The notes under the pieces: generated by a model
The model's input: the letters and a program-made list of their open reading frames with translations, nothing else
What the model was told of the DNA's origin: nothing
Database searches by the model: none
Part shown: piece after piece, positions 132-41,326 of the stretch
Layout of the letters: each line of letters begins with the position of its first letter
Numbering within the stretch: position 1 is the stretch's first letter
Origin: Prevotella sp.
GTDB lineage: Bacteria; Bacteroidota; Bacteroidia; Bacteroidales; Bacteroidaceae
Length of the DNA stretch: 63,495 bases
NCBI GenBank assembly: GCA_017478025.1
Contig: JAFVGZ010000013.1
Span: 1-63,495, forward strand
Reading direction: 5' to 3'
Position numbers and translations under genes: made by a program

Positions 132-240
132 ACCATTGACCATTGAGCATTGACCATTGAGCATTGACCATTGAGGATTGACCATTGACCAATGACCATT
201 GAGCATTGACCATTGAGCATTGACCATTGAGGTTTAACCT
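132..240. repeat. CATTGAC/CATTGAG tandem heptamer array
   Basis: About 105 bp made almost only of the 7-mers CATTGAC, CATTGAG and AATGACC in alternation, filling the gap between the HU-like stop and the next start codon. It ends in GGTTTAACCT just before the ATG at 241. No promoter motif can be seen in it, so it probably lies inside one transcript. Confidence 0.85.
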
Positions 241-429
241 ATGAACATTCGTGAACTAACGGCTGTCGCCATGCTGATAGCAGGTGTGGCGATGGCTTTT
301 ACCGCGCTCCTGATGCCGCCGCCGGGCGAGATACACGACTCCGTGCTGTGGATATTCGCACAGATCCTGCTCTACGCAGGCTCAGCACTGGGCATAGACG
401 CATACGTCAGAAAGCGACTTGGGAATTAA
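241..429 (+). CDS. small two-span membrane protein (holin-like size), unknown function
   Basis: A 62-residue protein. Hydrophobic stretches at about residues 7-27 and 35-53 suggest two membrane spans, with a basic C-terminal tail (YVRKRLGN). It lies between an HU-like gene and a smalltalk gene on the same strand. Size and topology recall small holins, but no family motif is recognised and no lysis enzyme is visible in the window. The start is the first ATG after the heptamer array. Confidence 0.6.
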   Translation: MNIRELTAVAMLIAGVAMAFTALLMPPPGEIHDSVLWIFAQILLYAGSALGIDAYVRKRLGN

Positions 430-433
430 AATG

Positions 434-441
434 AAAGGAGG
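434..441 (+). promoter_or_regulatory. strong Shine-Dalgarno before the smalltalk gene
   Basis: AAAGGAGG, 5 nt before the ATG at 447. Such a complete Shine-Dalgarno is unusual in this window, where most genes have poor ribosome-binding sites, and it argues that the micro-ORF is translated. Confidence 0.75.
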
Positions 442-446
442 AAAAC

Positions 447-542
447 ATGACTGACAACACAAAGAACAAGTGGTCTGTGTGGATTAATCTCATCCTCACG
501 ACCGTCACAGCGGTACTCACTACGCTTGGATTTAATGTGTAG
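447..542 (+). CDS. smalltalk micro-protein
   Basis: A 31-residue protein: a short polar N-terminus with lysines, then one hydrophobic helix (VWINLILTTVTAVLTTLG). This matches the pattern of the Bacteroidota smalltalk family, about 30 residues with one membrane helix, of unknown function and typically next to HU-like genes and amidases. It is followed at once by a hairpin terminator. It is too short for ordinary gene callers; the strong ribosome-binding site and context support it. Confidence 0.75.
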   Translation: MTDNTKNKWSVWINLILTTVTAVLTTLGFNV

Positions 543-548
543 GCAACA

Positions 549-588
549 CCCCGAAATAGGATTAACCACCCTGTTTCGGGGATTTTTT
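549..588 (+). terminator. rho-independent terminator after the smalltalk gene
   Basis: A 12-bp stem (549-560 with 570-581, one T-G wobble) beginning CCCCGAAA, with a 9-nt loop, followed by ATTTTTT. It ends the small operon that begins with the HU-like gene. Confidence 0.9.
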
Positions 589-594
589 GTTGAG

Positions 595-650
595 GATCAA
601 GGGACTCTGATCACTCTGAGATGACCGAAGAAGTCCCCTGATCTTGTTTT
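595..650. repeat. inverted repeat with T-rich exit
   Basis: GATCAAGGGACT at 595-606 faces AGTCCCCTGATC at 632-643 with one mismatch, then TTGTTTT. It may be a second terminator or a mobile-element scar. Confidence 0.5.
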
Positions 651-737
651 CCTGAGGATTTCATGTTCCAATTAACTAAAGATGAATATGATAGTTTGAA
701 GTGCCAAAATGGCACTTCAAACAAAAGGGGCGGTGAC
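651..737 (+). pseudogene. ORF6N-domain relic
   Basis: The frame starting at 651 reads PEDFMFQLTKDEYDSL and continues to SNKRGG. This is recognisable as the middle of an ORF6N (phage KilA-N-like antirepressor) domain, where PEDFMFQLT(K/E) is a common stretch. Only about 30 residues survive. The text then degenerates into a direct repeat (CTTTGAGAATTTCGGCA at 745-761 and 778-794). No intact gene remains. Confidence 0.6.
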
Positions 738-744
738 CGACGAG

Positions 745-794
745 CTTTGAGAATTTCGGCACTTTCCACCCAAAAACCTTTGAGAATTTCGGCA
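745..794. repeat. 17-bp direct repeat, 33-bp period
   Basis: CTTTGAGAATTTCGGCA occurs at 745-761 and 778-794 immediately after the ORF6N relic. It may mark the edge of a decayed mobile segment. Confidence 0.7.
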
Positions 795-992
795 TTTTTT
801 TATTCTTTTCCTTTGTTAATTGGGATTTTATAGCTAGGTGTCACAGGGACGGGTGAATGATTTTTTTTGACTTTAGCGACAATGGTTCTATGGATGGTTC
901 TTTGATCCGTTTTTGAATCTGAAATCAATTGTCCTTAGCAAGCAAAGCTTGCAAAAGCTTGAGTAAACATGATATCGTGTATGCCAACAGAC

Positions 993-1032
993 AAAAGGCT
1001 TCACTGTCCTTGCGGGAGTAGTGAAGCCTTTT
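993..1032. terminator. perfect 13-bp stem-loop, bidirectional terminator type
   Basis: AAAAGGCTTCACT (993-1005) and its exact reverse complement (1020-1032) enclose a 14-nt loop. Flanking A4 and T4 runs let it act in both directions. No gene directly upstream on either strand needs it, so it may be a leftover. Confidence 0.6.
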
Positions 1033-1071
1033 GGCTGTTGCGGATAGTCAGAAGCAAATTAACGAATTCTT

Positions 1072-1271
1072 GCTCCACGATGTTACGCAAGCGTCACAAA
1101 GTGCCGAGCGAACAAATTAACGAATTACATTTTAACCCTGCATTACAGCCGCCCCTTATCAAGTGGCTCTAAATGCTCCACCTTGTTACGCAAGCGTCCC
1201 AAAGGGCCGAGCGAACGAATTAACAAATTCTCGCTCCGATGCTCTACGCAAGCGTCCCTTTGGGCCGAGCG
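1072..1271. repeat. three copies of a dispersed GCTCC...GAGCG repeat
   Basis: Copies at 1072-1110, 1175-1213 and 1233-1271 share the core TACGCAAGCGTC and end in GCCGAGCG. Each has complementary ends (GCTC/GAGC) and a small inner hairpin. Related copies lie at 48198-48236 and 59751-59789. They lie between genes, downstream of sufS. The stretch 795-1283 contains no supported gene. Confidence 0.8.
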
Positions 1272-1283
1272 ATGCATTAAGCA

Positions 1284-2816
1284 TTAGCTTCCTGCGATTT
1301 TTCTGACAGCCTGTACGAGCTTATCTACCTCTTCGCGTGTGTTGTAGAGTGCGAAGGTGGGGCGTACTGACATCTCGTATCCCAAGGCTCTCAATGCGGG
1401 CTGGGCGCAGTGGTGGCCTGCACGGACGGCGATGCCTTCCTTGTCGAGAAGCTGACCGGTGAGCGGCACGTCCTGACCGTCGATGACGAAGGAGACGACG
1501 CTGACGCGGCGCTGAGGGTTGCCGATGATGGTGACACCCGGGATGAGTGCCAGCTGTTCACGGGCATATTCCGTCAGGTCATGTTCATGGGCCTCGATGT
1601 TGGGCAGTCCGATACGCTTCACGTAGTCCAGTGCCGCACCCAGTCCGATGGCATCTGCCACATTGGGCGTGCCTGCCTCGAAGCGTGCAGGAGGCACGTT
1701 GAACTTTGTCTCTTCAAGCGTGACATCCTGTATCATGTTGCCGCCTCCCTGCCACGGTGGGAGGAGCTCCAGATACTCCTTCTTGCCATACACGGCACCG
1801 ATGCCGTTGGGACCGTAGATCTTGTGGCCGGAGAATACGAAGAAGTCTGCGTCAAGCTTACGGATGTCTATAGGGGTGTGGGCAATGCTCTGGGCACCGT
1901 CGATGAGAACGGGCACGTTGTAACGGTGGGCTATCTCAATGATGCGCTCCACATCGTTGATGGTGCCGAAGGTGTTGTTCACATGTCCTACGGAGACGAA
2001 CTTGGTACGCGGGCCTATGATGCGCTCGTAGTCCTCAAGGATGAGGTCACCGCGACTGTTGACGGGTATGGCCTGCAACTTGGCGCCGCGCTCCTTGCAC
2101 ACCTGCTGCCAGGGTACGATGTTGGCATGATGGTCGAGCGTAGAGACGATGACCTCGTCACCCGGGTTGAGGTACTTGCGCCCGAAGGTCTGGGCTATGA
2201 GGTTGATGCCCTCGGTGGTGCCACGCACGAAGACGATGTTCTCTGCCGAAGGGGCGTTGATGAAGTCTGCCACCTTCTGACGCGCTTCCTCATACTGGTC
2301 TGTGGCACGTGCAGCCAGAGTGTGGGCTCCTCGATGGATGTTTGAGTTGTCGTGCTCGTAGTAGTGGGAGATGGTGTCAATGACAGACTGCGGCTTCTGC
2401 GTCGTAGCACCGTTGTCAAGCCAAACGAGCTGGTGACCGTTCACCGTCTGATGGAGCACGGGGAAGTCGCGGCGTATCTGGTCGAGGCTGAGGGTGTCGC
2501 GCTCTTCGTAGTTCAGGTCGCGTAGCTTGTCCGCCTCTGGTAGTCCCACTCCGAAGGACGGTGTGGGTGCAGAGAGTGACGATGGCGCTGCGGAGTCCAC
2601 ACTGCCATGCGGTGCAGGAACCTCCGGGAACCCACTGCCGCCCTGAAGCAGGCTCAGAAAGCCTGCCTCAAGGTCTGCGAGGTTCAGAGCATCGACCTCA
2701 TCGGGCACTACCGTGCGAGCCACGGACTGCAGCTCCTCGGGGCAGAAGCGCGATGCAATCTGCCGCAGCTGACCGATGTTGTCGAAGTCGCTGATAGTAT
2801 GGTCTATATTATACAT
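1284..2816 (-). CDS. sufS: SufS-type cysteine desulfurase, probable encapsulin cargo
   Basis: A PLP enzyme that takes sulfur from L-cysteine as an enzyme persulfide. The catalytic core begins near residue 113. It carries the PLP lysine K332 in SGHKIYGP and the active-site cysteine C470 in RAGHHCAQP, both SufS (group II) signatures. The 510-residue length exceeds a standard SufS (about 405) by a roughly 110-residue N-terminus. That segment has a short helical start followed by a Pro/Ser/Ala/Gly-rich low-complexity stretch, as described for cysteine desulfurases packaged in family 2 encapsulins. The start ATG overlaps the shell gene stop by one base (TAATG), indicating coupled translation. As last gene of the operon it should be made with its shell. 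Loading into the shell is inferred. Confidence 0.93.
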   Translation of the reverse strand: MYNIDHTISDFDNIGQLRQIASRFCPEELQSVARTVVPDEVDALNLADLEAGFLSLLQGGSGFPEVPAPHGSVDSAAPSSLSAPTPSFGVGLPEADKLRDLNYEERDTLSLDQIRRDFPVLHQTVNGHQLVWLDNGATTQKPQSVIDTISHYYEHDNSNIHRGAHTLAARATDQYEEARQKVADFINAPSAENIVFVRGTTEGINLIAQTFGRKYLNPGDEVIVSTLDHHANIVPWQQVCKERGAKLQAIPVNSRGDLILEDYERIIGPRTKFVSVGHVNNTFGTINDVERIIEIAHRYNVPVLIDGAQSIAHTPIDIRKLDADFFVFSGHKIYGPNGIGAVYGKKEYLELLPPWQGGGNMIQDVTLEETKFNVPPARFEAGTPNVADAIGLGAALDYVKRIGLPNIEAHEHDLTEYAREQLALIPGVTIIGNPQRRVSVVSFVIDGQDVPLTGQLLDKEGIAVRAGHHCAQPALRALGYEMSVRPTFALYNTREEVDKLVQAVRKIAGS

Positions 2817-4255
2817 TATTTCTCAATTTGGTTCCTGTGCTGGTAATCGTGATAGTAACCTACTTCGACGTTCTCAAGCACGGCGACTGCATCGTCCGTG
2901 AGTGAGGCGAGACTGAAGTACTTGGTGAGGAGATAGCTTGCCACGCCGAACTTGTCGAGTCCCATGAGGCGTGCAGAGAGCGATGGCGCAATCTCGCCGG
3001 GGATGCCTGTCTGATGAAGTCCTACGACACCCTGGTTCTTCTCACCGGCACGGACGAGGATGATGTCTGTGGTACCCACGCCGCGGTTGGTCAGATACTG
3101 TCCCTTCACCTCCACCTTGTCTGACGGGATGAGTGGTATGCCGCGCCATGTGATAACCTTTGTGCCGAAGATATCCTGTGTCACAGGAGGCACTCCGCGC
3201 CATGTGCACTCACGCTCGAAGGCGGCGATGGCACGTGGGTTGGCGATGAAGAACGACGGCTCTTTCCATACGAGGGAGATGAGTTCGTCGAGATCATCGG
3301 GTGTAGGAGCACCGTAGCGTGCAGAGATGCGTGCTGACGGGTCGGCAGTAGCAAGGAGTCCGAACTTGCGGTTGTTGATGAGCTCCCACTCCTGACGCTC
3401 CTTGAGACTCTCGATGCTGAGACGCAGCTGCTGCTCAAGTTGGTTGAACGGGTTGTTGTAAAGGTCGCTGACGCGAGTGTGAACACGCACGATGGTCTGC
3501 AGCGTGTTGAGAGAATACTCGGTGGGCTGCTCCTCGTAGTCAATATATGTCTCGGGGATGATGTTGTCTTCCTCAGCGCCGCTGACAAGGTCTATGTGCT
3601 TCTCGCCGTGGTCGTTGACGGTAGCCTTCAGGCGCAGATGCTCATCGACGGCCTGCTGGAACTGCTGACGGAACTCTGGAATCTCCTTGGTGAGACGCTC
3701 CAGCTCCTCGCGCTGCAGTGAGAGGAATACGGCAGGCGTGATGGTGCGAACGCTGACAGAAGCGGGTGAATCGCTCAGCAGGTCGGCCTCACCGAAGTAC
3801 TCGCCGGTGTTCAGCAGCGCTATGCGCAGCTCCTCGCCGTGTATGCCTTTCTTGATGACCTCTGCCTGACCATCGGCGACGATGAAGAAGCGCTGACGGT
3901 CCTCGCCCTCCTTTATCAGGAATTGTCCCAGCTCCACTTCCTCAGTGACGAAGCGGCGTGCGAGACGTGATACGATGGTCTCATCAATGTGAGAGAACAG
4001 AGGTATGCGACGCAGGCTCTTGGCCGTGAATGATGGTACGCCATCGAGGTAGCTGATCTTGATGCGCTCGGCCTTGCGCAGCTCTACCTTTGTGCGGTTG
4101 ACACGATAGGTGCCGCTCTCAACCTGAACCCAGGGGAGGAGTTTCAGCAGCAGTCTTGGGGTGATGGAGCCCATCTGCGGGGCTGTCTTGGTGGTGTTCG
4201 CCAGCTTTCGGGCGGTCTGCGTAGTCACACTACGCTGGATGTTGTTTTCGCTCAT
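2816..4255 (-). CDS. family 2 encapsulin shell protein with cyclic-nucleotide-binding-like insert
   Basis: A 479-residue major shell protein of the HK97-fold, SrpI-related family 2 encapsulins. N-terminal residues 1-80 are followed by an inserted cNMP-binding-like domain (about 84-208) with the FGEADLL phosphate-cassette start. The shell core then resumes near residue 235 (EEQPTEYSLN) and includes KFGLLA and TDIILVR. This insert is the architecture called family 2B. The usual phosphate-binding arginine of cNMP domains (PRxA) is replaced by SPASVSV, so classical cAMP binding is doubtful. It is coupled directly to the sufS cargo gene downstream. It would self-assemble into an icosahedral cytosolic compartment; that assembly is family knowledge, not seen here. 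Confidence 0.9.
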   Translation of the reverse strand: MSENNIQRSVTTQTARKLANTTKTAPQMGSITPRLLLKLLPWVQVESGTYRVNRTKVELRKAERIKISYLDGVPSFTAKSLRRIPLFSHIDETIVSRLARRFVTEEVELGQFLIKEGEDRQRFFIVADGQAEVIKKGIHGEELRIALLNTGEYFGEADLLSDSPASVSVRTITPAVFLSLQREELERLTKEIPEFRQQFQQAVDEHLRLKATVNDHGEKHIDLVSGAEEDNIIPETYIDYEEQPTEYSLNTLQTIVRVHTRVSDLYNNPFNQLEQQLRLSIESLKERQEWELINNRKFGLLATADPSARISARYGAPTPDDLDELISLVWKEPSFFIANPRAIAAFERECTWRGVPPVTQDIFGTKVITWRGIPLIPSDKVEVKGQYLTNRGVGTTDIILVRAGEKNQGVVGLHQTGIPGEIAPSLSARLMGLDKFGVASYLLTKYFSLASLTDDAVAVLENVEVGYYHDYQHRNQIEK

Positions 4256-4295
4256 AATTGTTGTTTTTCTGTTTGTGGAATGTCTGTGTCGGATG

Positions 4296-4314
4296 TCTGC
4301 GATGGTATCGCAGA
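4296..4314. repeat. TCTGCGAT-GGT-ATCGCAGA hairpin within the operon
   Basis: A perfect 8-bp stem with a 3-nt loop between the TusA-like and shell genes. The same hairpin occurs three more times at 6023-6135, between cysK and the protease gene. It may protect or process the polycistronic mRNA. Confidence 0.8.
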
Positions 4315-4329
4315 ATCTTTAACAATAAA

Positions 4330-4554
4330 CTATTTACGGATGGTGACACGCCATGTGTCACCTTCTACCTGCTCGGTGGCGAGGACCTCAAAGCCCTGTT
4401 CTTGAGCTGATTTGGGTACGTTGTTCAGAGGCTCACCCTCCTTGAGTAATACCTCCAGGGTGTCACCTTTGGCTATCTGTGCCAATTTTATCTTTGTCTT
4501 TACAAATGTCATGGGGCAGTGTTCTGCCGTGATGTCTAATGTGTGTGTTGCCAT
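4330..4554 (-). CDS. TusA-family sulfur-transfer protein
   Basis: A 74-residue protein with the TusA/SirA fold signature near the N-terminus: C13 in HCPMTFVKTK (CPxT instead of CPxP). TusA proteins accept persulfide sulfur from cysteine desulfurases on this cysteine and pass it to DsrE-type partners or carriers. Here it lies between a DsrE-like gene and the encapsulin-desulfurase pair, exactly the partners expected. The likely role is to carry sulfur between the desulfurase and the soluble enzymes. Length is typical of the family. Confidence 0.88.
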   Translation of the reverse strand: MATHTLDITAEHCPMTFVKTKIKLAQIAKGDTLEVLLKEGEPLNNVPKSAQEQGFEVLATEQVEGDTWRVTIRK

Positions 4555-4584
4555 ATATTCCGTTGTTATTGTTCTGTTAGGGGG

Positions 4585-5064
4585 TTATATAAACAGTGTT
4601 CTGCCTCCTTCTGAGAGTTCCAGGAATGTCGCGACGCCCAGGACGTCCTTCACCTCTGGTATGAAGTCCTCCTTCTTGAGGCCGAGCACGTGCATGGCCA
4701 TCTCGCAGGCGTAGAGGTTGATGCCGAGGACCTTTGCTGCTTCCACCAGTTCCTCGAGGGTGGCGACATTGTTCTTGCGCATCAGTTTGCGGAATATCGC
4801 AGGTCCTGCACCGAGGAAGTTGAAACGGCTTGTAGGTGTGGCAGAGAGGCCGCCCATCATGAAGCCGAAGAGCTTCGTAAGCCAGTTGGAACCGAGGAAT
4901 GCCCGTCCCTGCTTCTGCTTGATGGCATCTAATCCCCAAAAGGTGAAGAAGATGTTCACCTCGTAGCCCACTGCCGCTGCTCCCGTAGCGAGTGTGAAGG
5001 TGGCTGTGAGTTTGTCGAAATCGCCGCTGAAGGCTATGATTGAGAGTTTCTTTGCGTCTGCCAT
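4585..5064 (-). CDS. DsrE/DsrF/DrsH-like family protein
   Basis: A 159-residue protein resembling the DsrE-like families often annotated next to TusA. It opens with a Rossmann-like strand (KLSIIAFSGDFDK), followed by a helix rich in Ala/Gly and FFTFWGL. A conserved cysteine lies in ACEMAMHVLGL near the C-terminus. Such proteins relay sulfane sulfur to or from TusA. The start lies 3 nt after the cysK stop and 30 nt precede the TusA-like start. A short membrane-prone helix (LFGFMMGGL) is present, as in many members. Confidence 0.85.
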   Translation of the reverse strand: MADAKKLSIIAFSGDFDKLTATFTLATGAAAVGYEVNIFFTFWGLDAIKQKQGRAFLGSNWLTKLFGFMMGGLSATPTSRFNFLGAGPAIFRKLMRKNNVATLEELVEAAKVLGINLYACEMAMHVLGLKKEDFIPEVKDVLGVATFLELSEGGRTLFI

Positions 5065-5067
5065 TTG

Positions 5068-6003
5068 TTATTCTTCCTTAAAGAGTTTTGTTGATAGGTA
5101 TCGCTCGCCTGTGTCTGGCAGCAGAACGACTACTGTCTTGCCATCATTCTCGGGGCGTCGAGCTACGGTGATGGCGGCATGTAGTGCTGCTCCGGAAGAG
5201 ATGCCGGCAAGCACACCTTCCTCTTTGGCCAACAGTCGCCCTGCATCAAAGGCTTCCTCGTCCTTTACCCGTATCAGCTCATTTATCGCGTTCAAGTCAA
5301 GCACTTTGGGAATGAAGCCTGCACCGATGCCCTGTATCTTATGAGGACCTGCCTTGCTGCCGCTGATGACAGAGGAGTTCCAGGGTTCTACGCCCACTAC
5401 TCGCACACGTGGGTTAAGCTTCTTCAGCGCACTTCCTACGCCGGTGATGGTGCCGCCGGTGCCAATGCCAGCCACAAAGTAATCTACGTTCCCGTCAGTG
5501 TCGTTCCATATCTCAGGACCTGTGGTGAGTCTGTGGGCTGTAGAGTTGGCGGGGTTGTTGAACTGCTGGGGTATGAATGAGTTGGGGTACTGCTCGGCCA
5601 GTTCCCTCGCTTTGCGTACGGCACCTGCCATGCCCTCATAGGCTGGGGTGAGAACCAGCTCGGCACCTAAGGCCTTCAGCAGCGAGCGTCGCTCTATGCT
5701 CATCGCATCGGGCATGGTGAGTATCAGTTTGTAGCCGCGCTGATTGGCAGCCAAAGCCAGACCGATTCCGGTGTTGCCACTGGTAGGCTCGATGATGACG
5801 GTCTTACTGTCGATGAGGCCCTCTGCTTCTGCGCGTTGAAGCATCATGATGCCGATACGATCCTTGACGCTGCGGCCAGGGTTGTGCATCTCTAATTTTG
5901 CTACGAGATGCGCTCTCAATCCCAGATGCTTTTCAAGCTTTGTCAGCTCGAGAAGCGGGGTGTGACCGATGAGGTCAATTATGTTTCTTGCTATTCTGCT
6001 CAT
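5068..6003 (-). CDS. cysK: cysteine synthase (O-acetylserine sulfhydrylase) or CysM-like
   Basis: A 311-residue fold-type II PLP enzyme. It has the PLP lysine K47 in PGRSVKDR, the substrate loop TSGNTG (74-79), and the phosphate-binding GIGTGGT near residue 178. The family makes cysteine from O-acetylserine and sulfide, or, in CysM of mycobacteria, from O-phosphoserine and a protein thiocarboxylate. Its place directly after a JAMM protease, an E1-like enzyme and a ThiS-like carrier suggests the thiocarboxylate-using variety. Sequence reading alone does not separate CysK from CysM. The start is the ATG at 6001-6003. Confidence 0.93.
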   Translation of the reverse strand: MSRIARNIIDLIGHTPLLELTKLEKHLGLRAHLVAKLEMHNPGRSVKDRIGIMMLQRAEAEGLIDSKTVIIEPTSGNTGIGLALAANQRGYKLILTMPDAMSIERRSLLKALGAELVLTPAYEGMAGAVRKARELAEQYPNSFIPQQFNNPANSTAHRLTTGPEIWNDTDGNVDYFVAGIGTGGTITGVGSALKKLNPRVRVVGVEPWNSSVISGSKAGPHKIQGIGAGFIPKVLDLNAINELIRVKDEEAFDAGRLLAKEEGVLAGISSGAALHAAITVARRPENDGKTVVVLLPDTGERYLSTKLFKEE

Positions 6004-6017
6004 AGGGTTTTGATTTT

Positions 6018-6150
6018 AACTGTCTGCGATGGTATCGCAGACTCTTAGACAATTTTTCTGCGGTGATTGCCTGCGATGGTATCGCGGACTCTTTGACAAT
6101 TTTTCTGCGGTGATTGCCTGCGATGGTATCGCAGACTCTTTGACGTTTTG
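6018..6150. repeat. 47-bp tandem repeat carrying TGCGAT-GGT-ATCGCA hairpins
   Basis: Three hairpins at 6023-6041, 6070-6088 and 6118-6135 recur with a 47-bp period; the linker reads GACAATTTTTCTGCGGTG. The middle copy has one changed base (ATCGCGG), converting a pair to a G-T wobble. The array fills the gap between cysK and the protease gene, inside the operon. A fourth copy is at 4296. Confidence 0.9.
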
Positions 6151-6540
6151 TTAGTAATGTTCCTGCTTGTCCTCTACTTTGCCATTCTTGATGCTGAAGG
6201 AGTTCAGACGAATGTCTCCGTTGAGGAGTGACAGGATGGCGTAGCGTATGGTGGGGTCGTTTGCAAGTCTGATGTCCTCTTCTGAGGGGCGGGATGGAGA
6301 TGCGGGGTGTGAGTGCCAGTTGGCAAGTATCTGCAGTCCCTGCTTGCGAGCGTATCTGAGTGCGGCAAACTGCTCCTTGGGGTCAAAGCTGAAATGCTCC
6401 TCAGAGTGGTCGATGTTGGTCATGGGGTAGCTCTCCGTTACTGTGTCGCCGATGCCCAGGAGATAGCCGCAACTTTCCACGGGAGCCTCCCTCTTAGCCT
6501 GGGCGATGATAGCCTGTATCACATCATCATTGATTGTCAT
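6151..6540 (-). CDS. JAMM/Mov34 metalloprotease, Mec+ or HcyD-like
   Basis: A 129-residue zinc peptidase. The complete JAMM motif is visible: catalytic E22 (VESCGYLLG), then H76-S-H78-P with S86 and D89. Bacterial homologues next to ThiS-like carriers either release cysteine from the carrier C-terminus (Mec+ in Mycobacterium) or trim extra residues to expose the Gly-Gly end (HcyD in Wolinella). The carrier at 7403 has nine residues after its glycines, so a trimming role is the natural inference. It is in the operon between the E1-like gene and cysK. Confidence 0.93.
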   Translation of the reverse strand: MTINDDVIQAIIAQAKREAPVESCGYLLGIGDTVTESYPMTNIDHSEEHFSFDPKEQFAALRYARKQGLQILANWHSHPASPSRPSEEDIRLANDPTIRYAILSLLNGDIRLNSFSIKNGKVEDKQEHY

Positions 6541-6577
6541 AATTCTTTTATTCTTGTAATATACGTTGTGAAAAAGG

Positions 6578-7390
6578 TTAATGGTTGCCCTTCAGATCGC
6601 ATGCAGCCTGCTCATAGTCTATGAGGTGGTCAATGGTAGGGTGACTGCCGCAGATAGGACACTTGCCTGATTTCTTTACGCTGACGGTGCGGAAGAGCAT
6701 CGTCTTGGCGTCAAAAGTGAGAAGTCGGTCTGTGAGCAGTTCGCCTATACCTATTATATATTTAAGCGCTTCTGCTGCCTGAATGGTGCCAAGCATTCCT
6801 GCTATGGCTCCCAAGACCCCTGCCTGGCTGCATGTGGGAACGGCTCCCGGTGGTGGCGGCTCTTTGAACATACACCTGTAACACGCCGTGCCGGGAAGAT
6901 GGGTGAACGTCTGGCCGGTGAAGCGCAGTATGCCACCGTGTGAGAACGGCTTGCCGGCCATCACGCAGGCATCATTGATGAGGAACTTCACGGGGAAGTT
7001 GTCGGTGCCGTCGATGATGAAGTCATACTCCCTGATGATGTCAAGCGCGTTTGAGGAGTCCAGCCACGTCTGGTAGGTATCGACCTTTACATCGGGATTG
7101 ATGGCAAGCATCTTGTCTTTCGCACTATCCACTTTCGGTTTGCCCACATCGGCTGTGAAGTGTATCACCTGACGCTGGAGATTGCTGAGATCCACCACGT
7201 CGGCATCCACAATGCCTATTCTGCCAACACCCGCGGCTGCAAGATAGAGACTGACAGGTGCACCGAGACCACCGGCACCGATGACAAGCACGCGGGCATC
7301 ATGGATTTTCTCCTGACCCTCAACGCCGACATCCTGCAGAAGGATGTGGCGGGAATAGCGTTCTATCTGTTGTTCTGTGAAATCTATCAT
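6578..7390 (-). CDS. ThiF/MoeB/HesA-family sulfur-carrier adenylyltransferase
   Basis: A 270-residue E1-like enzyme that adenylates the C-terminal glycine of ThiS/MoaD-like carriers. Visible features are the ATP loop GAGGLGAP (38-45), the DLSNLQRQ motif (68-74), the DGTDNF motif (127-132), a candidate catalytic C187 in PTCSQAGVLG, and a structural zinc site C170-x2-C173 with C244-x2-C247. There is no C-terminal rhodanese domain, so sulfur must come from another donor, such as TusA or the desulfurase. It lies 12 nt downstream of the carrier gene. Confidence 0.93.
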   Translation of the reverse strand: MIDFTEQQIERYSRHILLQDVGVEGQEKIHDARVLVIGAGGLGAPVSLYLAAAGVGRIGIVDADVVDLSNLQRQVIHFTADVGKPKVDSAKDKMLAINPDVKVDTYQTWLDSSNALDIIREYDFIIDGTDNFPVKFLINDACVMAGKPFSHGGILRFTGQTFTHLPGTACYRCMFKEPPPPGAVPTCSQAGVLGAIAGMLGTIQAAEALKYIIGIGELLTDRLLTFDAKTMLFRTVSVKKSGKCPICGSHPTIDHLIDYEQAACDLKGNH

Positions 7391-7402
7391 AACTGTATAA
7401 GA

Positions 7403-7639
7403 TTACTTGAATTGATAACCCGTATGAAACATTCCTCCTCCGCCCATGAAGTAGAGGAAATCCACCTCGTCGCCATCGCAGAGATAAATCTTGTTCCACT
7501 CTTCGCGATCAGCAAACTCCTCGTTCACCTGAACAGAAACCATATCGGGCTGATCCACCTTATTTATATGTATTAACTCCGTGACATTCAGAGGCAGTGT
7601 CACCGTCTGCTTTTCTCCGTTTACTTTAATCTGTGCCAT
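7403..7639 (-). CDS. ThiS/MoaD-like sulfur carrier with C-terminal tail
   Basis: A 78-residue beta-grasp carrier starting MAQIKVNGEK. Near the end it has the typical CDGDEVDFLYFMGGGG, but the glycines (66-69) are followed by MFHTGYQFK. Mature carriers must end in Gly-Gly to be adenylated and thiocarboxylated, so removal of the tail is required. The JAMM protease in the operon is the obvious candidate, as for HcyS/HcyD. The start at 7639 is preferred over an ATG at 7681 because it matches the fold start, is preceded by AAAAAAAGAG, and the upstream ATG nearly coincides with the predicted transcription start. Confidence 0.9.
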   Translation of the reverse strand: MAQIKVNGEKQTVTLPLNVTELIHINKVDQPDMVSVQVNEEFADREEWNKIYLCDGDEVDFLYFMGGGGMFHTGYQFK

Positions 7640-7691
7640 ACTCTTTTTTTCGTGTTTATAGGGTTTGTATTCTTGTTGCATTAATCTGGGT

Positions 7692-7699
7692 GCAAAGTT
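7692..7699 (-). promoter_or_regulatory. -7 box of the sulfur-relay operon
   Basis: TAACTTTG on the minus strand, about 53 nt before the chosen start of the carrier gene. No clear -33 TTG at the usual spacing, so an activator may be needed. It is the only good promoter seen for the eight genes down to 1284. Confidence 0.65.
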
Positions 7700-7803
7700 A
7701 CGGACTTTCTACGGAGTGTGAAATCCCATATCAACGGCATTTTATATAACCTATGTGCGTTATTCTACCCATCACATATTTATGGTATTTTGGGCCATAT
7801 ACC

Positions 7804-7833
7804 TTGCAGGATGAAAAAAACTCGTTACCTTTG
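7804..7833 (+). promoter_or_regulatory. promoter of the MetY/MetB-like gene
   Basis: TTGC at 7804-7807, 19 bp after its TTG, then TACCTTTG at 7826-7833: a textbook Bacteroidota promoter. The predicted leader of about 95 nt contains a small CCCTT-gaca-AAGGG hairpin at 7879-7892. No known riboswitch is recognised. It diverges from the sulfur operon, so both could share control in the 7700-7830 region. Confidence 0.8.
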
Positions 7834-7936
7834 CAGCCCAGAATGACATTGTCAGTATTCCGTCAAACCACAATTACCTCCCTTGACAAAGGGCGGCTAT
7901 AAGGTATTAGATTAATATAAACCACAACCACAGTAT

Positions 7937-9184
7937 ATGAATTACGAAACAAGTATCCTCAGCACCCCCTATGCAAAGCCCGACCCGTTCGGCGCGTTAG
8001 CCCAACCCGTATATCATTCGGCGGCATTTGAATTTCCCTCTGCCAAAGCTATGAGCGACGCGTTCTGTGGCCGCTCACCCGAACATAGCTATTCCCGTAT
8101 CAGCAATCCCACGGTACAGAACTTTGAGCGTCGCGTGCAACGATACACCGGAGCGCTGAACGTGACAGCCCTCAACACAGGAATGGCAGCCATAGCCAAT
8201 ACGCTGATAGCCATAACGAGTCAGGGTAGTAACGTCGTAACCTCACGGCATCTCTTTGGTAACACATACTCGCTCCTCAGCCAGACACTGTCGCAGTTTG
8301 GGGTGGAGATGCGTACTGCAGACCTGACAAACGTGGATGAGACGGAACGGTTGATAGATGATGACACGTGTGCCGTGTTCCTCGAGATTATCACCAATCC
8401 CCAGATGGAGGTGGCAGACATTGCTGCACTTGCTGAGGCAGCCCATGCTCATGGCGTACCGCTCATTGCCGATACGACCATAGTGCCTTTCACCGCCTTT
8501 CATGCAAAGGACTTTGGCATTGACATAGAAGTCATTTCCAGTACGAAGTATATCAGCGGCGGAGCCACCGGGCTGGGCGGACTCATCATCGATTACGGCA
8601 CTTTCGATTGGAGCCAGAGCCGTAATGAAGCGCTGCGTCAGAGAACAAAGAGGGTAGGGAAGAGGAATGCCTTTACTGCCAGGCTGAAGACAGAGATACT
8701 CACAAACTTCGGTGCCCTGATGACGCCCCACGAGGCATATATGCAGACCCTGGGTCTGGAAACCCTCAACCTGCGATTTCAGCGACAGGCCTCGTCGGCT
8801 CTGTGGATTGCTAAGCAGTTGAGAGATGTCCCCGATATAAAAAAGGTGAATTATACGGCCCTTGAAGATAACCCATATCACGACCTCAGCGAGAGGCAGT
8901 TCGGACCGTTGCCGGGAGCTATGCTTACCATTGACCTGGCATCAAAGGAGGACTGTTACCGCTTCATAGACTCGCTGAAGCTGATACGCCGCGCAACGAA
9001 TCTCTTTGACCATCGTTCGCTGGCCATTCATCCAGCGTCAACCATATTCGGCACCTTTACCCCAGAGCAGCGAGAGGCGATGGATGTGCGTGATACTACG
9101 GTGCGTCTCAGTATAGGTCTGGAGGAAAAAGAGGATATTCTGGCTGACATTAAGCAGGCATTATGCTTTGATAATAATCAATAA
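7937..9184 (+). CDS. O-acetylhomoserine sulfhydrylase / cystathionine gamma-synthase family enzyme
   Basis: A 415-residue fold-type I PLP enzyme of the Cys/Met metabolism family. Visible motifs are SYSRISNPT, the ALNTGMAAI region, and the PLP lysine K204 in SSTKYISGG. The family interconverts O-acyl-homoserine, sulfide and cysteine; MetY makes homocysteine from O-acetylhomoserine and a sulfide source. In Wolinella, MetY uses the thiocarboxylate of HcyS, whose partner genes resemble those of the neighbouring operon. Divergent pairing here suggests the same use. Sequence reading cannot fully separate MetY from MetB. Confidence 0.85.
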   Translation: MNYETSILSTPYAKPDPFGALAQPVYHSAAFEFPSAKAMSDAFCGRSPEHSYSRISNPTVQNFERRVQRYTGALNVTALNTGMAAIANTLIAITSQGSNVVTSRHLFGNTYSLLSQTLSQFGVEMRTADLTNVDETERLIDDDTCAVFLEIITNPQMEVADIAALAEAAHAHGVPLIADTTIVPFTAFHAKDFGIDIEVISSTKYISGGATGLGGLIIDYGTFDWSQSRNEALRQRTKRVGKRNAFTARLKTEILTNFGALMTPHEAYMQTLGLETLNLRFQRQASSALWIAKQLRDVPDIKKVNYTALEDNPYHDLSERQFGPLPGAMLTIDLASKEDCYRFIDSLKLIRRATNLFDHRSLAIHPASTIFGTFTPEQREAMDVRDTTVRLSIGLEEKEDILADIKQALCFDNNQ

Positions 9185-9202
9185 TGAAAGAAAAACAGTA
9201 GG

Positions 9203-9238
9203 TTTTTTTTGGAGAGTCATTTTTTTTTAATACCTTTG
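9203..9238 (+). promoter_or_regulatory. promoter with near-leaderless output
   Basis: TTTTG ending at 9211, 19 bp spacer, TACCTTTG at 9231-9238. The ATG at 9246 follows only 7 nt later, so the mRNA would be leaderless or almost so. Confidence 0.75.
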
Positions 9239-9245
9239 CACCCAA

Positions 9246-9797
9246 ATGCACGGTTTAGAACTATTGAATATTGACCTGAAGGGGCTGACGACGGATGCTT
9301 TAGAGTTTAGTCAGTCGCTGGATGATGAGTATTTCAGAAGTCTTGATGGTGCTGAGATTAAGCACGGACAAGTCGAGGCTCACGTGTCGCTTAACAAGGC
9401 TGCAGGTGGGGACTTCGCTTTGACGTTGTCAATCGATGGTACCGTTACCGTAACATGCGACCTGTGTCTTGATGACATGGATCAGCATGTGGAGGGCGAG
9501 GCTTCGTTTGTAGTGAAACTGGGCACAGAGTCAAGCGAAGATGACCAGCTGATAGTGGTGGATGAGAATCAAGGCATCCTCTCGCTGGGTTGGATAATCT
9601 ATGAGACAATAGCTCTGGCAATACCCATCAAGCACGTTCATGCACCTGGAAAATGCAATGCTGCGATGACGGAAAAACTGAAGGAGCTCTCACCTAAGGG
9701 AGCAACGGAGGAAGAAGAGTCAGCCACCCGAAGTGGTGATGGTGCCGAGGATGCTATTGACCCGCGCTGGCAGAAACTGAAAGATTTGAAGCCATAG
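9246..9797 (+). CDS. YceD/DUF177 family protein
   Basis: A 183-residue protein of the DUF177 family, almost always encoded just before rpmF as here. A CDLCLDDM pair of cysteines lies mid-protein, followed by the acidic VVKLG strand and a C-terminal WQKLKDLKP typical of the family. Homologues bind 23S rRNA and aid ribosome assembly. It is the first gene of the rpmF-fabH-era group. Confidence 0.9.
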   Translation: MHGLELLNIDLKGLTTDALEFSQSLDDEYFRSLDGAEIKHGQVEAHVSLNKAAGGDFALTLSIDGTVTVTCDLCLDDMDQHVEGEASFVVKLGTESSEDDQLIVVDENQGILSLGWIIYETIALAIPIKHVHAPGKCNAAMTEKLKELSPKGATEEEESATRSGDGAEDAIDPRWQKLKDLKP

Positions 9798-9917
9798 GCT
9801 GGATTTTACCAGAGAATCTGTAGCTGAGCCATAACTCAGTCGCGTTTCTGTTTGGTGGTCTGGTCGAATGATTAACTGTTGAAATTAAAAACTAACGATT
9901 AAAAGAATAAAAGAAAA

Positions 9918-10103
9918 ATGGCACATCCTAAAAGAAGACAATCAAAGACACGTACCCTTAAGCGTCGTACCCATGATAAGGCTGTAGCACCTACGCTGGC
10001 AGTATGTCCTAACTGTGGTGCGTACTATGTTTACCACACGGTATGTCCTACCTGCGGCCAGTATCGCGGTAAGCAGGCTATCGAAGTGGCTGAAGCAGAG
10101 TAA
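9918..10103 (+). CDS. rpmF: 50S ribosomal protein L32
   Basis: A 61-residue protein starting MAHPKRRQSKTRTLKRR, with a zinc ribbon formed by CPNC and CPTC. L32 binds near the peptide exit region of the large subunit. It is cotranscribed with DUF177 and fabH, an order conserved in many bacteria that links ribosome and fatty-acid synthesis. The 120-bp gap before it shows no clear promoter. Confidence 0.97.
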   Translation: MAHPKRRQSKTRTLKRRTHDKAVAPTLAVCPNCGAYYVYHTVCPTCGQYRGKQAIEVAEAE

Positions 10104-10114
10104 GACGTGTACGT

Positions 10115-11107
10115 ATGAAGAATGCAGTTATCACAGGTATCGGCGGCTATGTGCCTGAGTATATCCTGACTAACGAGGAGCTCTCTCGCATGGTGGATAC
10201 GAGCGACGAGTGGATACTGACACGTGTCGGTATTAAGGAGCGTCGCATCCTGAATGAGGAGGGTCTCGGCTCTGCCTACATGGGCAGAAAGGCTGTTCGT
10301 GAGTTGCTGAGGAAGACAGATGTTGATCCACAGACGGTTGACTGCGTCATCTGCGCTACCACGACTCCTGACTATCGCTTCCCTTCTAACGCATCTATCA
10401 TCATCGGTAAGCTGGGCATGAAGAATGCTCACGGCTTCGACATCTCTTGCGCATGCTGCGGTTTCCTATATACCGTGGACCTGGCGTCAGCTATGATACA
10501 GAGTGGCCGCTATAAGAGAATTATCGTCGTAGCAGCCGAGAAGATGTCATCTATGACTGACTACCAAGACCGTCAGACATGTGTACTCTTCGGCGACGGC
10601 GCTGCCTGCGTTATGGTAGAGGCTACAGAGGAAGAGGGCGTAGGCTTCCAGGACTCGTTCCTGAGAACAGACGGTCTGGGACTGCCGTTCCTTCACATGA
10701 AGGCCGGTGGCTCTGTATGCCCGGCTTCACACTATACGGTGGACCATCGTATGCACTACATCTATCAGGAGGGCCGCACAGTGTTCCGCTACGCTGTGAC
10801 CTCAATGGCAGATGATGTGCAGAAGATAATGGAACGCAATAACCTGAAGGAAGAGGACGTGAGGTGGATAGTGCCCCATGAGGCGAATATGCGCATCATT
10901 GAGGCAGTAACGAAGCGTCTGGAGTTCCCAATGGAAAAGGTAATGGTAAATATAGAACACTATGGCAACACGAGCGCCGCATCTATTGCTCTTGCCCTCT
11001 GGGACTTTGAGAAGCAGCTGAAGAAAGGCGACAACGTGATATTAACTGCCTTCGGCGCAGGATTTGTTCATGGTGCAAGCTATTACAAATGGGGATACGA
11101 TGCATAA
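10115..11107 (+). CDS. fabH: beta-ketoacyl-ACP synthase III
   Basis: A 330-residue thiolase-fold enzyme that condenses acetyl-CoA (or a branched primer) with malonyl-ACP to start fatty-acid synthesis. The catalytic triad is visible: Cys in ISCACCGF, His in PHEANMRI and Asn in EHYGNTSAAS. It starts 11 nt after rpmF and its last codons overlap the era start. Confidence 0.96.
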   Translation: MKNAVITGIGGYVPEYILTNEELSRMVDTSDEWILTRVGIKERRILNEEGLGSAYMGRKAVRELLRKTDVDPQTVDCVICATTTPDYRFPSNASIIIGKLGMKNAHGFDISCACCGFLYTVDLASAMIQSGRYKRIIVVAAEKMSSMTDYQDRQTCVLFGDGAACVMVEATEEEGVGFQDSFLRTDGLGLPFLHMKAGGSVCPASHYTVDHRMHYIYQEGRTVFRYAVTSMADDVQKIMERNNLKEEDVRWIVPHEANMRIIEAVTKRLEFPMEKVMVNIEHYGNTSAASIALALWDFEKQLKKGDNVILTAFGAGFVHGASYYKWGYDA

Positions 11108-35082: not shown

Positions 35083-35156
35083 AGCCTCTTGTCGGATTCG
35101 AACCAACGACCCCGAGATTACAAATCACGTGCTCTGGCCAACTGAGCTAAAGAGGC
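35083..35156 (-). tRNA. tRNA-Thr (anticodon TGT)
   Basis: 74 nt. Acceptor strands GCCTCTT (35156-35150) and AAGAGGC (35090-35084), discriminator U, D-arm TAGCTCAGTTGG, anticodon loop TTTGTAA with TGT at 35120-35122, T-arm GGTTCGAATCC. CCA is not encoded. It lies 3 nt after the SRP RNA and is read from the same promoter. Confidence 0.96.
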
Positions 35157-35159
35157 GGG

Positions 35160-35256
35160 TGGGCAGCTTACTATATCGCACCGCTACAACCAAGTACCTT
35201 TGCTACGTTCCCGTCCTGGAGGATTCCGAGGGAGCTGGTCGTATAGGACTGCCCAT
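35160..35256 (-). ncRNA. ffs: signal recognition particle RNA (4.5S type)
   Basis: About 97 nt on the minus strand. The ends pair (TGGGCAG with CTGCCCA) and the apical domain contains CAGGACGGGAACGTAGCA, the Bacteroidota form of the conserved GGAA...AGCA loop bound by Ffh. The start is set by the promoter at 35274-35305. The 3' end is 3 nt from the tRNA-Thr 5' end, so RNase P cleavage may create it. Confidence 0.85.
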
Positions 35257-35273
35257 TTTTCTTTAAGCGGGTG

Positions 35274-38244: not shown

Positions 38245-41200
38245 TTATCTCATCGCATTAATTTCATTTAGCATGGAATCATAATTGGTTACTTCGTGAT
38301 ATCTCACTTTGCTTGATGATATATCATTGAATAGCTTCTTGACACATTCTATTTTCGCTTTCTCCACACCCCTCAGTTCCATTGAGTTCATCGAACCCTT
38401 TGTTTCTGCTATAAAGAACAGGTGCTTCACCCCCATGTTGTCGTTAAAGGCAATAGCCCAGTCGGGAGCATAGCTGCCTACGGGAGTGGGTATTTGGAAG
38501 GTGCGGGGCAGTCTTGCATATACACACACTTCATCGGCTCCATCCATTGTAGTAACGAAATCAAGCTCGTTCTTGCTGTCCGTGAAGACATAATCAAGGA
38601 TATGCCTTTTAGCCGCAAAAGCTTTGTCTATAGTTCCTCTGGTCTTTGCTTGGGTAAAGATGCTTGTGTCATACCTTTCCTCTGTTTTGTTATATGTAAT
38701 GTGCTCTACGATCATCGTGGCCTTTTCTTCCTTGATGATGCGAATAGTATTACGTATAAACTCCTCGGGGTTAGTCTTAAACAGCATCAGTTGCGCAGTA
38801 GTGATCCCTTTCAGTATTCTCACGGCCGTCCTCCTTGTGAGTGTTGCGCCCCTGCTTATCTCGCCCACCAAATCGTATGGCACATCAGATGTGCTGACAT
38901 CCCTCATCTCTTGTCTGCGAGAGGTTACCTTGCCGTCAAAGTCTAAGCCTTCACCCTGTTCTCCTGCTACTACAACATATTTCAGAGGCGTAACAGTCAG
39001 TTTGCTGTTTATTGCAGTGGCAGCCTTCTTTATCAGTTCCTCGCTGTCATAGTGAACAGTATAGACATACTGATGGCTTATCTCTTTCCACAGGCGCTTA
39101 AACTCATCCTTGTTGGCATTAGCATTCAGTTTGTCGTTCACCACCTCAGCCTTTTCGTTACCATCCTCTACCATACCTTCAAGAACAGACGGGTCGAAGA
39201 TACCCTGTATGAGCAGATGAACCTGCGCGCTGATTGGTTGCAGCTTCTTGCCCAAAGGAGCTAAGGCTCCATTCTCCTTATCCTTATTATATAATGGCAG
39301 TATGTTGCCCTTCTTGTCAGTATAGTCATTATCATAGAGATAGCTGACTATGCTTGCAGCCTCCTGATTGCTGATGGTATATTTCTCTCCGTTCAGATCG
39401 AATGTCTTACCCTCAAAGTATGCCACCGTTGCCAATCTTGGACGCTCGCGCAGGGCATCACGGGTATCCTTCTGCAGGTCGTCAACAAAGCTGCTATAAC
39501 TCTCGTTGGCTATCACGGTCAGCTTGTTGATGTCGTGCACAGCCTCGCCCAATCGCTCCGCGTCCATTCTGTTTCCCTGATTGTCAACGCATATACGTAA
39601 GCCTCGTCCCGCTTCCTGACGTTTTGCCGTAGCGCTGTTAGCATGTCTCAGAGTGCATATTTGGAATACATTAGGGTTATCCCATCCTTCTCTCAGGGCA
39701 GAGTGTGAGAATATGAAGCGTGTCGGCTCGTCAAACGAGAGCAGCCTTTCCTTGTCTTTTAATATAAGGTCGTATGCGCTTACATCTGCCGAGAATGTAT
39801 CGCCACGCTTCACGGTGCTGTCTATGGCATGTCCTTTCTTGTCTATGGAGAAATACCCGTTATGCACCTGGTCTGCCGTAAACCTGCGAAGATACCTCTG
39901 ATAGTCATCGTCAAACAGAGAGAGGTTCTCATTGAGGTAGTGCATATACTCCTTCTCAAATTCCTTCCACAATCTGCCTTTCACCACCTCCCCATTTTCG
40001 TCGTAGCTCTTATAGTTCGCCACCTCGTCTATGAAGAATAGCGACAACGTCTTTATGCCTTGCTTAAACAGAGTAGATTCTTTCTCAAAATGGCTCGCAA
40101 TGGTCTCGCGTATCTGTATCTTTTGCAGAGTTTCCTCTGTCACATCGCCAATCACCTCTCCCTTTCTTATCTTGTCACCATTACGGAAATATACGGTATT
40201 GGTGTTCACGTCGATATCCGTAATGACAAACTCCTTGTATGCAGGCAACCTCGACGCATCATAGAGCGAGTCGCCGTATGCAAACTTCATCGTCTTTCTG
40301 CTGGTGCTTTGTGCGCCCTTTATCTCTATCTCCAGCTTCACCTCCGGTGCCTTTTTGGGGGAAAGCAGTATGCTGTCAAAGTATATGTAGGCCTGCGCGC
40401 CAAGCAGGTTCTGTGCCGTTATGCCCTTCACCTGTATCTTCTTCACCAGTTTCTGCCTGTAGGCATCGTATGCATCCAGGGCATAGATGCAGTTGTGCGA
40501 AGTCTTGTGGGTAGCGGAATAATTGAGCACAAAGAGCGGCTTGAAGTTCTTCAGGGCCCTTTGTGTCGCGGCGCCTTCCATCTTCTGCGGCTCATCCATG
40601 ATGATGATGGGCCTGTTGGCTGCTATCACGTCAATAGGTCTGCGACTCTGGAAATCGTCACGCTTGGAGTATATGATGCGGGCCTCCTTGTTTTTCGCAT
40701 CCTCTTTGAAAGATGTGTTGAACGCCTGAGTGTTGATTATCATCACATTGATGCTTGCATCGCTGCTGAATGAATCCAAGGCAGTCAGGTTGCTGCTGTT
40801 ATATATGAAGTATCGTGCCTTCTTCTGATACTGCTCCATGAAGTGTTCTTCCAGCATCTTAAAGCTCTTATACACACCCTCACGAATGGCGATGCTGGGC
40901 ACAACGACAATGAACTTTGACCAGCCAAAGCGCTTGTTCATCTCAAACATAGTCTTGATATAGACGTATGTCTTACCAGTACCGGTCTCCATCTCAATGT
41001 CGAGCGAGCAGGCACCCAGTCCGTCAGGCTTACTTAGGGTCTTGCTTTGTGGTATGTTGCCTTCGGCTTGCTGCTTATGTATGTTTGCCAACAACTGACC
41101 GTCATTCAGTTCCACAGCATTGTTTCGCCAACCCACATAGTCCTCCTCAAAGATTATCTTTCCTGCCCCTATCTTGCCCAAGTCCCTGCGATACTGGGCA

Positions 41201-41289
41201 TTGGTCTTTGATGGCTGCCCAGCAAACACATTCACAGTCTGCTCTACAGCCTCTGTCTGGTATTGTTGTATCTTAAATTTGAATTTCAT
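38245..41289 (-). CDS. type III-like restriction subunit Res (helicase-nuclease)
   Basis: A 1014-residue protein. A superfamily 2 helicase core has Walker A ETGTGKT near residue 105, motif II DEPQ, motif III YSAT and motif VI QEAGRGLRI. The C-terminus has a PD-(D/E)xK-type nuclease (APDWAIAF then AETKGS). It is the standard architecture of type III Res, which moves on DNA with Mod and cuts unmodified phage DNA. It is encoded last in the operon, 37 nt after mod. Confidence 0.92.
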   Translation of the reverse strand: MKFKFKIQQYQTEAVEQTVNVFAGQPSKTNAQYRRDLGKIGAGKIIFEEDYVGWRNNAVELNDGQLLANIHKQQAEGNIPQSKTLSKPDGLGACSLDIEMETGTGKTYVYIKTMFEMNKRFGWSKFIVVVPSIAIREGVYKSFKMLEEHFMEQYQKKARYFIYNSSNLTALDSFSSDASINVMIINTQAFNTSFKEDAKNKEARIIYSKRDDFQSRRPIDVIAANRPIIIMDEPQKMEGAATQRALKNFKPLFVLNYSATHKTSHNCIYALDAYDAYRQKLVKKIQVKGITAQNLLGAQAYIYFDSILLSPKKAPEVKLEIEIKGAQSTSRKTMKFAYGDSLYDASRLPAYKEFVITDIDVNTNTVYFRNGDKIRKGEVIGDVTEETLQKIQIRETIASHFEKESTLFKQGIKTLSLFFIDEVANYKSYDENGEVVKGRLWKEFEKEYMHYLNENLSLFDDDYQRYLRRFTADQVHNGYFSIDKKGHAIDSTVKRGDTFSADVSAYDLILKDKERLLSFDEPTRFIFSHSALREGWDNPNVFQICTLRHANSATAKRQEAGRGLRICVDNQGNRMDAERLGEAVHDINKLTVIANESYSSFVDDLQKDTRDALRERPRLATVAYFEGKTFDLNGEKYTISNQEAASIVSYLYDNDYTDKKGNILPLYNKDKENGALAPLGKKLQPISAQVHLLIQGIFDPSVLEGMVEDGNEKAEVVNDKLNANANKDEFKRLWKEISHQYVYTVHYDSEELIKKAATAINSKLTVTPLKYVVVAGEQGEGLDFDGKVTSRRQEMRDVSTSDVPYDLVGEISRGATLTRRTAVRILKGITTAQLMLFKTNPEEFIRNTIRIIKEEKATMIVEHITYNKTEERYDTSIFTQAKTRGTIDKAFAAKRHILDYVFTDSKNELDFVTTMDGADEVCVYARLPRTFQIPTPVGSYAPDWAIAFNDNMGVKHLFFIAETKGSMNSMELRGVEKAKIECVKKLFNDISSSKVRYHEVTNYDSMLNEINAMR

Positions 41290-41326
41290 CTCTTAATTGT
41301 CAATTATCAATTGTCAATTATCAATT
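41290..41326. repeat. TCAATTATCAATTG short tandem repeat
   Basis: Overlapping TCAATTG and TCAATTATC words fill the gap between mod and res. Confidence 0.8.

Follow-up and report, generated by a model that had tools for sequence, protein, structure and literature searches.

In a Prevotella genome and in related Bacteroidota, the genes for a family 2B encapsulin shell and a SufS-like cysteine desulfurase share one conserved locus with a sulfur carrier module, and the shell and desulfurase appear, from gene neighbourhoods, to hold the place that is taken in related Bacteroidales by a sulfite reductase–TusA fusion beside the same module. The window, i.e. the whole 63,495-nucleotide stretch analysed here, is one whole contig, and the nine-gene locus lies in its first 9.2 kb. 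ORF positions combined with Pfam and NCBIfam profile matches give eight minus-strand genes and one divergent plus-strand gene; the nine ORFs of the preliminary description stand at the positions given there, and all match named families. Since the desulfurase and shell ORFs overlap by one base and the minus-strand intergenic gaps are 147 bases or less, it is plausible that the eight minus-strand genes form a single transcript. Weak -7-like elements of the Bacteroidota type were seen by eye upstream of the carrier gene (TAACTTTG, 7693..7700, minus strand) and of the MetY gene (TACCTTTG, 7826..7833, plus strand), using what we take to be the Bacteroidota -7 consensus; a strict two-part -33/-7 pattern gave 9 matches, with neither of these two elements among them. 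The palindrome CTGCGATACCATCGCAG lies in the shell/TusA gap (4297-4313) and, inside a 47-base repeat, in the CysK/JAMM gap (6024-6144). It occurs at 24 genomic places with at most one mismatch, versus none for the reversed control, and is therefore ruled out as a locus-specific element, being a genome-wide REP-like repeat. Elsewhere on the contig are an array of 7- and 14-base units (ACCATTG) close to the contig end (132-231), a Bacteroidales small SRP RNA adjoining a tRNA-Thr (35156-35262), a type III restriction-modification-like pair consisting of a RE_endonuc/ResIII protein and an N6/N4 methylase (38245-43192), and a TauE/SafE-type exporter distant from the locus (62310-63143).

The shell protein (2816..4255, minus strand; NF041163, PF19307, PF00027) had been described as a family 2 encapsulin, which is correct and can be refined by sequence to family 2B, because a cNMP-type domain is inserted in it (PF00027 at residues 106-190 inside the SrpI-like shell protein) and because it scores 562.7 bits against the 2B model NF041163 (cut-off 400). 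It is also above the cut-off of the 2A model (421.2 bits vs 380), and its best solved relative is 9bje, with known family 2 shells next; assembly and cargo packing are putative. At the column that we align with the phosphate-binding Arg of cNMP domains, 78 of 82 rows have Ser and the other 4 have Ala. For this reason, and because excerpts of PMC12407261 report Streptomyces 2B domains that do not bind cyclic nucleotides, cNMP control of the shell is not favoured.

The desulfurase (1284..2816, minus strand; Aminotran_5/SufS-like, E 3e-147) has features of an encapsulin cargo, namely a SufS-like domain behind a disordered N-terminal extension with conserved motifs. Its best-scoring NCBIfam model is that of the family 2 cargo, NF041166, although the score of 721.7 bits falls short of the cut-off of 800 and the match spans residues 103-507 only. 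What had been noticed as a low-complexity N-terminus is a poorly ordered extension of ~107 residues, for which the structure model (from a 16-row alignment) gives pLDDT below 50 at residues 1-11 and 64-107. This putative cargo-loading region contains the motifs LRQIASRFCPEE and FGVGLPE, found in 72 and 76, respectively, of 79 distinct rows as against maxima of 3 and 1 in shuffled extensions, both patterns having been drawn up post hoc from the rows themselves; with a fixed 130-residue cut the second motif is found in 72. From these features, the desulfurase would be packed in the shell. It is, to judge from sequence comparison, a dedicated paralog, since another SufS, 48-52% identical and with a match that starts at residue 105-110, past the extension, was found in 12 of the 13 shell-positive genomes. 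One of these second copies (in G007) has an in-frame stop; in the remaining genome (G146, 86% complete) the cluster desulfurase is the only SufS seen.

Three further genes would prepare a sulfur carrier. The carrier itself is ThiS-like and resembles HcyS (7403..7639, minus strand; 55.3 bits against TIGR01683, cut-off 37.45), and its start is probably at 7639, which is the start common to its relatives, rather than at 7681, where the longest ORF begins. It ends in FMGGGG plus a 9-residue tail, and FMGGG followed by 1-19 residues ends all 74 carrier ORFs of shell loci, the window's included (65 distinct sequences, some contigs having been fetched twice). In HcyS-type carriers the C-terminal Gly-Gly is masked by such a tail. 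A protease would thus be needed, and the cluster has one in the HcyD-like JAMM protein (6151..6540, minus strand; PF14464, Prok-JAB), whose metal motif (E22, H76, H78, S86 and D89) is intact and invariant in 14 rows. One shell-less locus (L184) has a carrier with nothing after the GGG, even though JAMM is present. The HcyF-like, E1-like carrier-activating enzyme (6578..7390, minus strand; PF00899, E 1.1e-81) has the conserved motifs VPTCSQAG and CYRC and no rhodanese domain, a Pfam scan giving no domain besides PF00899. As to the order of events, shell and shell-less rows are intermixed near the root of the E1 tree. The best solved relatives of the carrier and of JAMM are 2k5p/3cwi and 2kks, respectively, and their source organisms presumably carry the operons of row 4e of PMC1779556. 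A role of the carrier in thiamine synthesis is not favoured, since contig C34 of the genome has another gene of the ThiS family and the cluster contains JAMM and MetY.

The divergent gene encodes a MetY-like sulfhydrylase (7937..9184, plus strand; PF01053, Cys_Met_Meta_PP). Among solved chains it is nearest to 3ri6 (370 bits; next 256), which we take to be a Wolinella protein, making it a MetY of the Wolinella type, and the canonical paralog on contig C20 of the same genome has the reverse pattern (8wko 515, 3ri6 252). The comparison concerns the C20 copy; another full-length paralog sits on C26. Each of the 61 other cluster MetY rows, preselected by length and a 50% identity filter, scores higher with the window's MetY than with the C20 paralog, by a factor of at least 1.9. 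Other PF01053 enzymes are found in every genome tested, and the window's genome has a MetA-family gene. The carrier tail, JAMM and MetY thus point, as far as sequence can tell, to the HcyS/HcyF/HcyD/MetY pathway, in which the carrier thiocarboxylate is the sulfur donor for homocysteine. Of the two thiocarboxylate pathways invoked in the preliminary description, it is this one that is retained; the CysO/Mec+/CysM branch is not favoured, as the cluster enzyme (5068..6003, minus strand; PALP) passes the CysK model TIGR01139 (439.5 bits, cut-off 350.95) and fails the CysM model TIGR01138 (292.1 bits vs 394.2). Its best solved relatives are named cysteine synthase A and O-acetylserine sulfhydrylase, and by these matches it is an ordinary CysK-type O-acetylserine sulfhydrylase. 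The remaining two genes encode candidate sulfur-relay proteins: a stand-alone TusA-like protein with a CPMTF motif (4330..4554, minus strand; PF01206, E 4.6e-22), whose relatives match the TusA end of the sulfite reductase–TusA fusion, and a DsrE-like protein (4585..5064, minus strand; PF13686, E 1.1e-40) with one invariant Cys (C120, in all of 14 rows). The latter does not pass the DsrE2 model NF047629 (71.1 bits vs cut-off 210), and its structure model has a mean pLDDT of 59.

The association is conserved well beyond one strain, the result that would have been contradicted by adjacency in this strain only. A scan of species-representative genomes for the shell gave 347 stretches with relatives, the best 80 of which were analysed for gene presence by tblastn with identity thresholds of 48-60% and minimum lengths set per gene. 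Their hosts are Bacteroidota, mostly Bacteroidales groups, many from ruminant sites by name. All eight genes occur together in 69 of these best 80 of 347 loci, and in 41 of the 42 flank-complete ones, defined as having 8 kb or more of examined DNA on either side of the shell; the exception (L104) lacks CysK, and the remaining ten incomplete loci are all outside the flank-complete set. In 36 of the 42 a MetY with 50% identity or more to that of the window lies near the shell; in the other 6 none does. Within the same best 80 of 347, four gene orders were seen 32, 27, 7 and 3 times, CysK is in the cluster in 75 loci, and 18 have a hexapeptide-transferase gene that by eye is serine acetyltransferase-like, Pfam giving the hexapeptide repeat alone. 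As the 80 were chosen by shell similarity, and hence are close relatives, some with identical shells, and as many contigs end nearby, these figures describe the clade of the window's shell rather than all 2B shells.

The shell is patchy in its distribution, being found at full length in 4 of 60 relatives (35 of the genus and 25 of the order), all four of the window's genus. Among 393 evenly sampled Bacteroidales genomes, 10 have a shell above the cut-off, 16 match the JAMM profile and 9 have both, a co-occurrence with a Fisher p of 2e-13 when kinship is ignored. Shell without JAMM is limited to one genome (G274, 65% complete), and JAMM without shell to seven. In a sample of the phylum, family 2 shells were found in 61 of 395 genomes, 54 of them from one family, where the neighbours by eye are thiS-thiG-thiH-thiF. 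No strong JAMM match was obtained in 41 of the 60 shell-positive genomes outside Bacteroidales (35 of those 54 plus all six of another class), and weak ones near 50 bits were seen in 8. The family 2 shell loci that were opened outside the order lie near CysK-like and hexapeptide-transferase-like genes, with no JAMM or DsrE. Because strong JAMM matches are missing from these 41 outside shell genomes, the joint locus looks like a Bacteroidales invention.

In five of the seven JAMM-only genomes (G065, G158, G247, G254 and G427) a sulfite reductase adjoins JAMM or the carrier, with a C-terminal TusA part wherever the contig reaches that end; in the other two (G179 and G278) no member of the sulfite reductase family was matched anywhere in the genome. 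Conversely, no sulfite reductase body was found in the DNA examined around the best 80 of 347 shell loci, in which the fusion query matches from residue 651 of 792 on, i.e. at its TusA end. Two of the shell-less loci, L182 and L184, have CysK as well. Both arrangements coexist in G099, where the shell cluster contains carrier, CysK, TusA and DsrE, and the genome's one JAMM adjoins the sulfite reductase–TusA fusion, ~20 kb away, along with an E1 and a MetY; G335 (8% contaminated) has both arrangements too. The fusion is present in G099, G335, G422 and the window's own genome (contig C31), so that the shell need not be the sole sulfur input, and both inputs may serve one carrier in the window's genome. 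The same contig has, in the stretch C31:6001-26000 (L314) at ~180-10839, what by eye are ABC transport, PAPS reductase, CysN and heme/siroheme genes, only the sulfite reductase in this run being model-checked. Genome-wide, sulfite reductase occurs in 4 of 13 shell-positive, 5 of 7 JAMM-only and none of 8 other shell-negative genomes (five of these eight having tested JAMM-negative), and the difference between the first two groups is not significant (p 0.16).

We consider the chances about even that carrier-dependent homocysteine synthesis has in the encapsulated desulfurase an alternative source, or a store, of sulfur. From the parts, the motifs, the conserved linkage and the alternative context established at the level of sequence, we infer each transfer step and the direction of flux as follows. 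JAMM would trim the carrier tail to expose the glycines, and E1 would adenylate the carrier. The desulfurase within the 2B shell would take sulfur from cysteine, and this sulfur would leave the shell, or a store inside it, in the form of a small species, reduced or persulfidic, that TusA and DsrE would collect and hand on to the carrier. As a thiocarboxylate, the carrier would then give its sulfur to activated homoserine on MetY, yielding homocysteine, and CysK, joined in some loci by the serine acetyltransferase-like gene, would refill the cysteine pool from sulfide. The presumed exit of sulfur from the shell is the weakest step of this mechanism. In one solved family 2A shell the five-fold pore measures 3.7 A (excerpts of PMC8049743), and in a 2B shell from Streptomyces the two-fold pores measure 14 x 60 A and are in part covered by the CBDs of that shell (excerpts of PMC12407261); by analogy with these pore sizes, transfer by a small diffusible sulfur species would be no less likely than direct docking at the shell. 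As to direction, a route that returned cysteine sulfur to cysteine would be futile; the sensible one is from cysteine to homocysteine.

It is also possible, if on balance unlikely, that the locus is a sulfur island without direct coupling, in which elemental sulfur is stored by the shell with its desulfurase and the carrier module uses sulfide for homocysteine, the two being co-located because both act when sulfur is limiting. Excerpts of PMC12407261 cite sulfur storage as the role of encapsulated desulfurases, and both the neighbours of the shells opened outside the order and the carrier module without shell in 7 of 393 genomes agree with such an arrangement. However, the eight genes keep together across four gene orders in the best 80 of 347 loci, which is more than passive neighbourhood would suggest, and a pure store would give the stand-alone TusA and DsrE no clear use. 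Thiocarboxylate-dependent cysteine synthesis of the CysO/Mec+/CysM kind, with the carrier feeding the cluster CysK, would account for the presence of CysK in 75 of those 80 loci and in the two shell-less ones, and ThiS-JAB-E1-cysteine synthase operons are described in the available part of PMC1779556. We nevertheless hold it to be improbable, as the enzyme is of the CysK and not the CysM type, as the desulfurase would close a futile loop, and as the E1 is without the rhodanese domain of row 4c of that paper. Although JAMM/E1/beta-grasp sets are likewise part of predicted conjugation systems (excerpts of PMC1779556), it is very improbable that the module merely resembles HcyS and serves ubiquitin-like protein modification or sulfane-sulfur detoxification, since no E2 match was found in the ten recurring neighbour families scanned (two of which matched nothing) and since MetY and CysK recur beside it.

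The preferred reading, sulfur delivery from the shell to homocysteine, joins parts that are already known, and their combination is without description among the literature matches listed. The HcyS-type homocysteine pathway goes back to work of 2011 cited in parts of PMC5764234 and PMC6225789. The present locus shares with that pathway and with the row 4e operons of PMC1779556, as far as the available parts of these sources go, a ThiS-like carrier, a rhodanese-less E1, JAMM, TusA/SirA and a 3ri6-type MetY, whereas sulfate/sulfite reduction genes are found there and the shell with desulfurase, DsrE and CysK are found here. With the 2A SrpI shell and desulfurase of Synechococcus elongatus (excerpts of PMC8049743), it shares an HK97-type family 2 shell and a SufS-like cargo with a disordered N-terminus. 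By eye, the first extension motif is similar to LARLANEFFS, a 2A cargo motif given in those excerpts; the second 2A cargo motif, a YYFL-like pattern, is found in none of 79 extension rows. The extension is also shorter (~107 residues vs 225 in the 2A cargo), and, unlike the S. elongatus system, the shell here is of type 2B with a cNMP-type domain and has carrier pathway genes alongside. The 199 family 2B operons with cysteine desulfurase reported in excerpts of PMC8346489 have a 2B shell and a desulfurase with a disordered N-terminus, and probably represent the same operon core. The accessory genes named there are different, namely serine acetyltransferase and rhodanese, and the terms TusA, ThiF, 'sulfur carrier' and cystathionine gave no matches in the main text of that paper, as distinct from its supplements. 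Likewise, at the level of title and beginning of abstract, again as distinct from supplements, no description of a shell and desulfurase combined with the carrier module was found among the literature matches listed.

Knockouts in S. elongatus had no growth defect (excerpts of PMC8049743), and the locus suggests candidates for the acceptors and the end product that the sulfur of an encapsulated desulfurase may reach. It also offers a natural comparison between carrier modules that adjoin a shell and those that adjoin a sulfite reductase. Tentatively, and at somewhat less than even chances, the nanocompartment could take, hold and release cysteine sulfur via TusA and DsrE to the thiocarboxylate carrier, so that ruminant-gut Bacteroidales would have a way of turning cysteine into methionine without cystathionine, able to substitute for assimilatory sulfite reduction. 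Since the genes for the cage and its desulfurase adjoin those of a homocysteine-type carrier system in these gut and rumen bacteria, the cage may feed that pathway. Many of the hosts bear the names of ruminant sites, where the flow of sulfur into methionine matters for nutrition.
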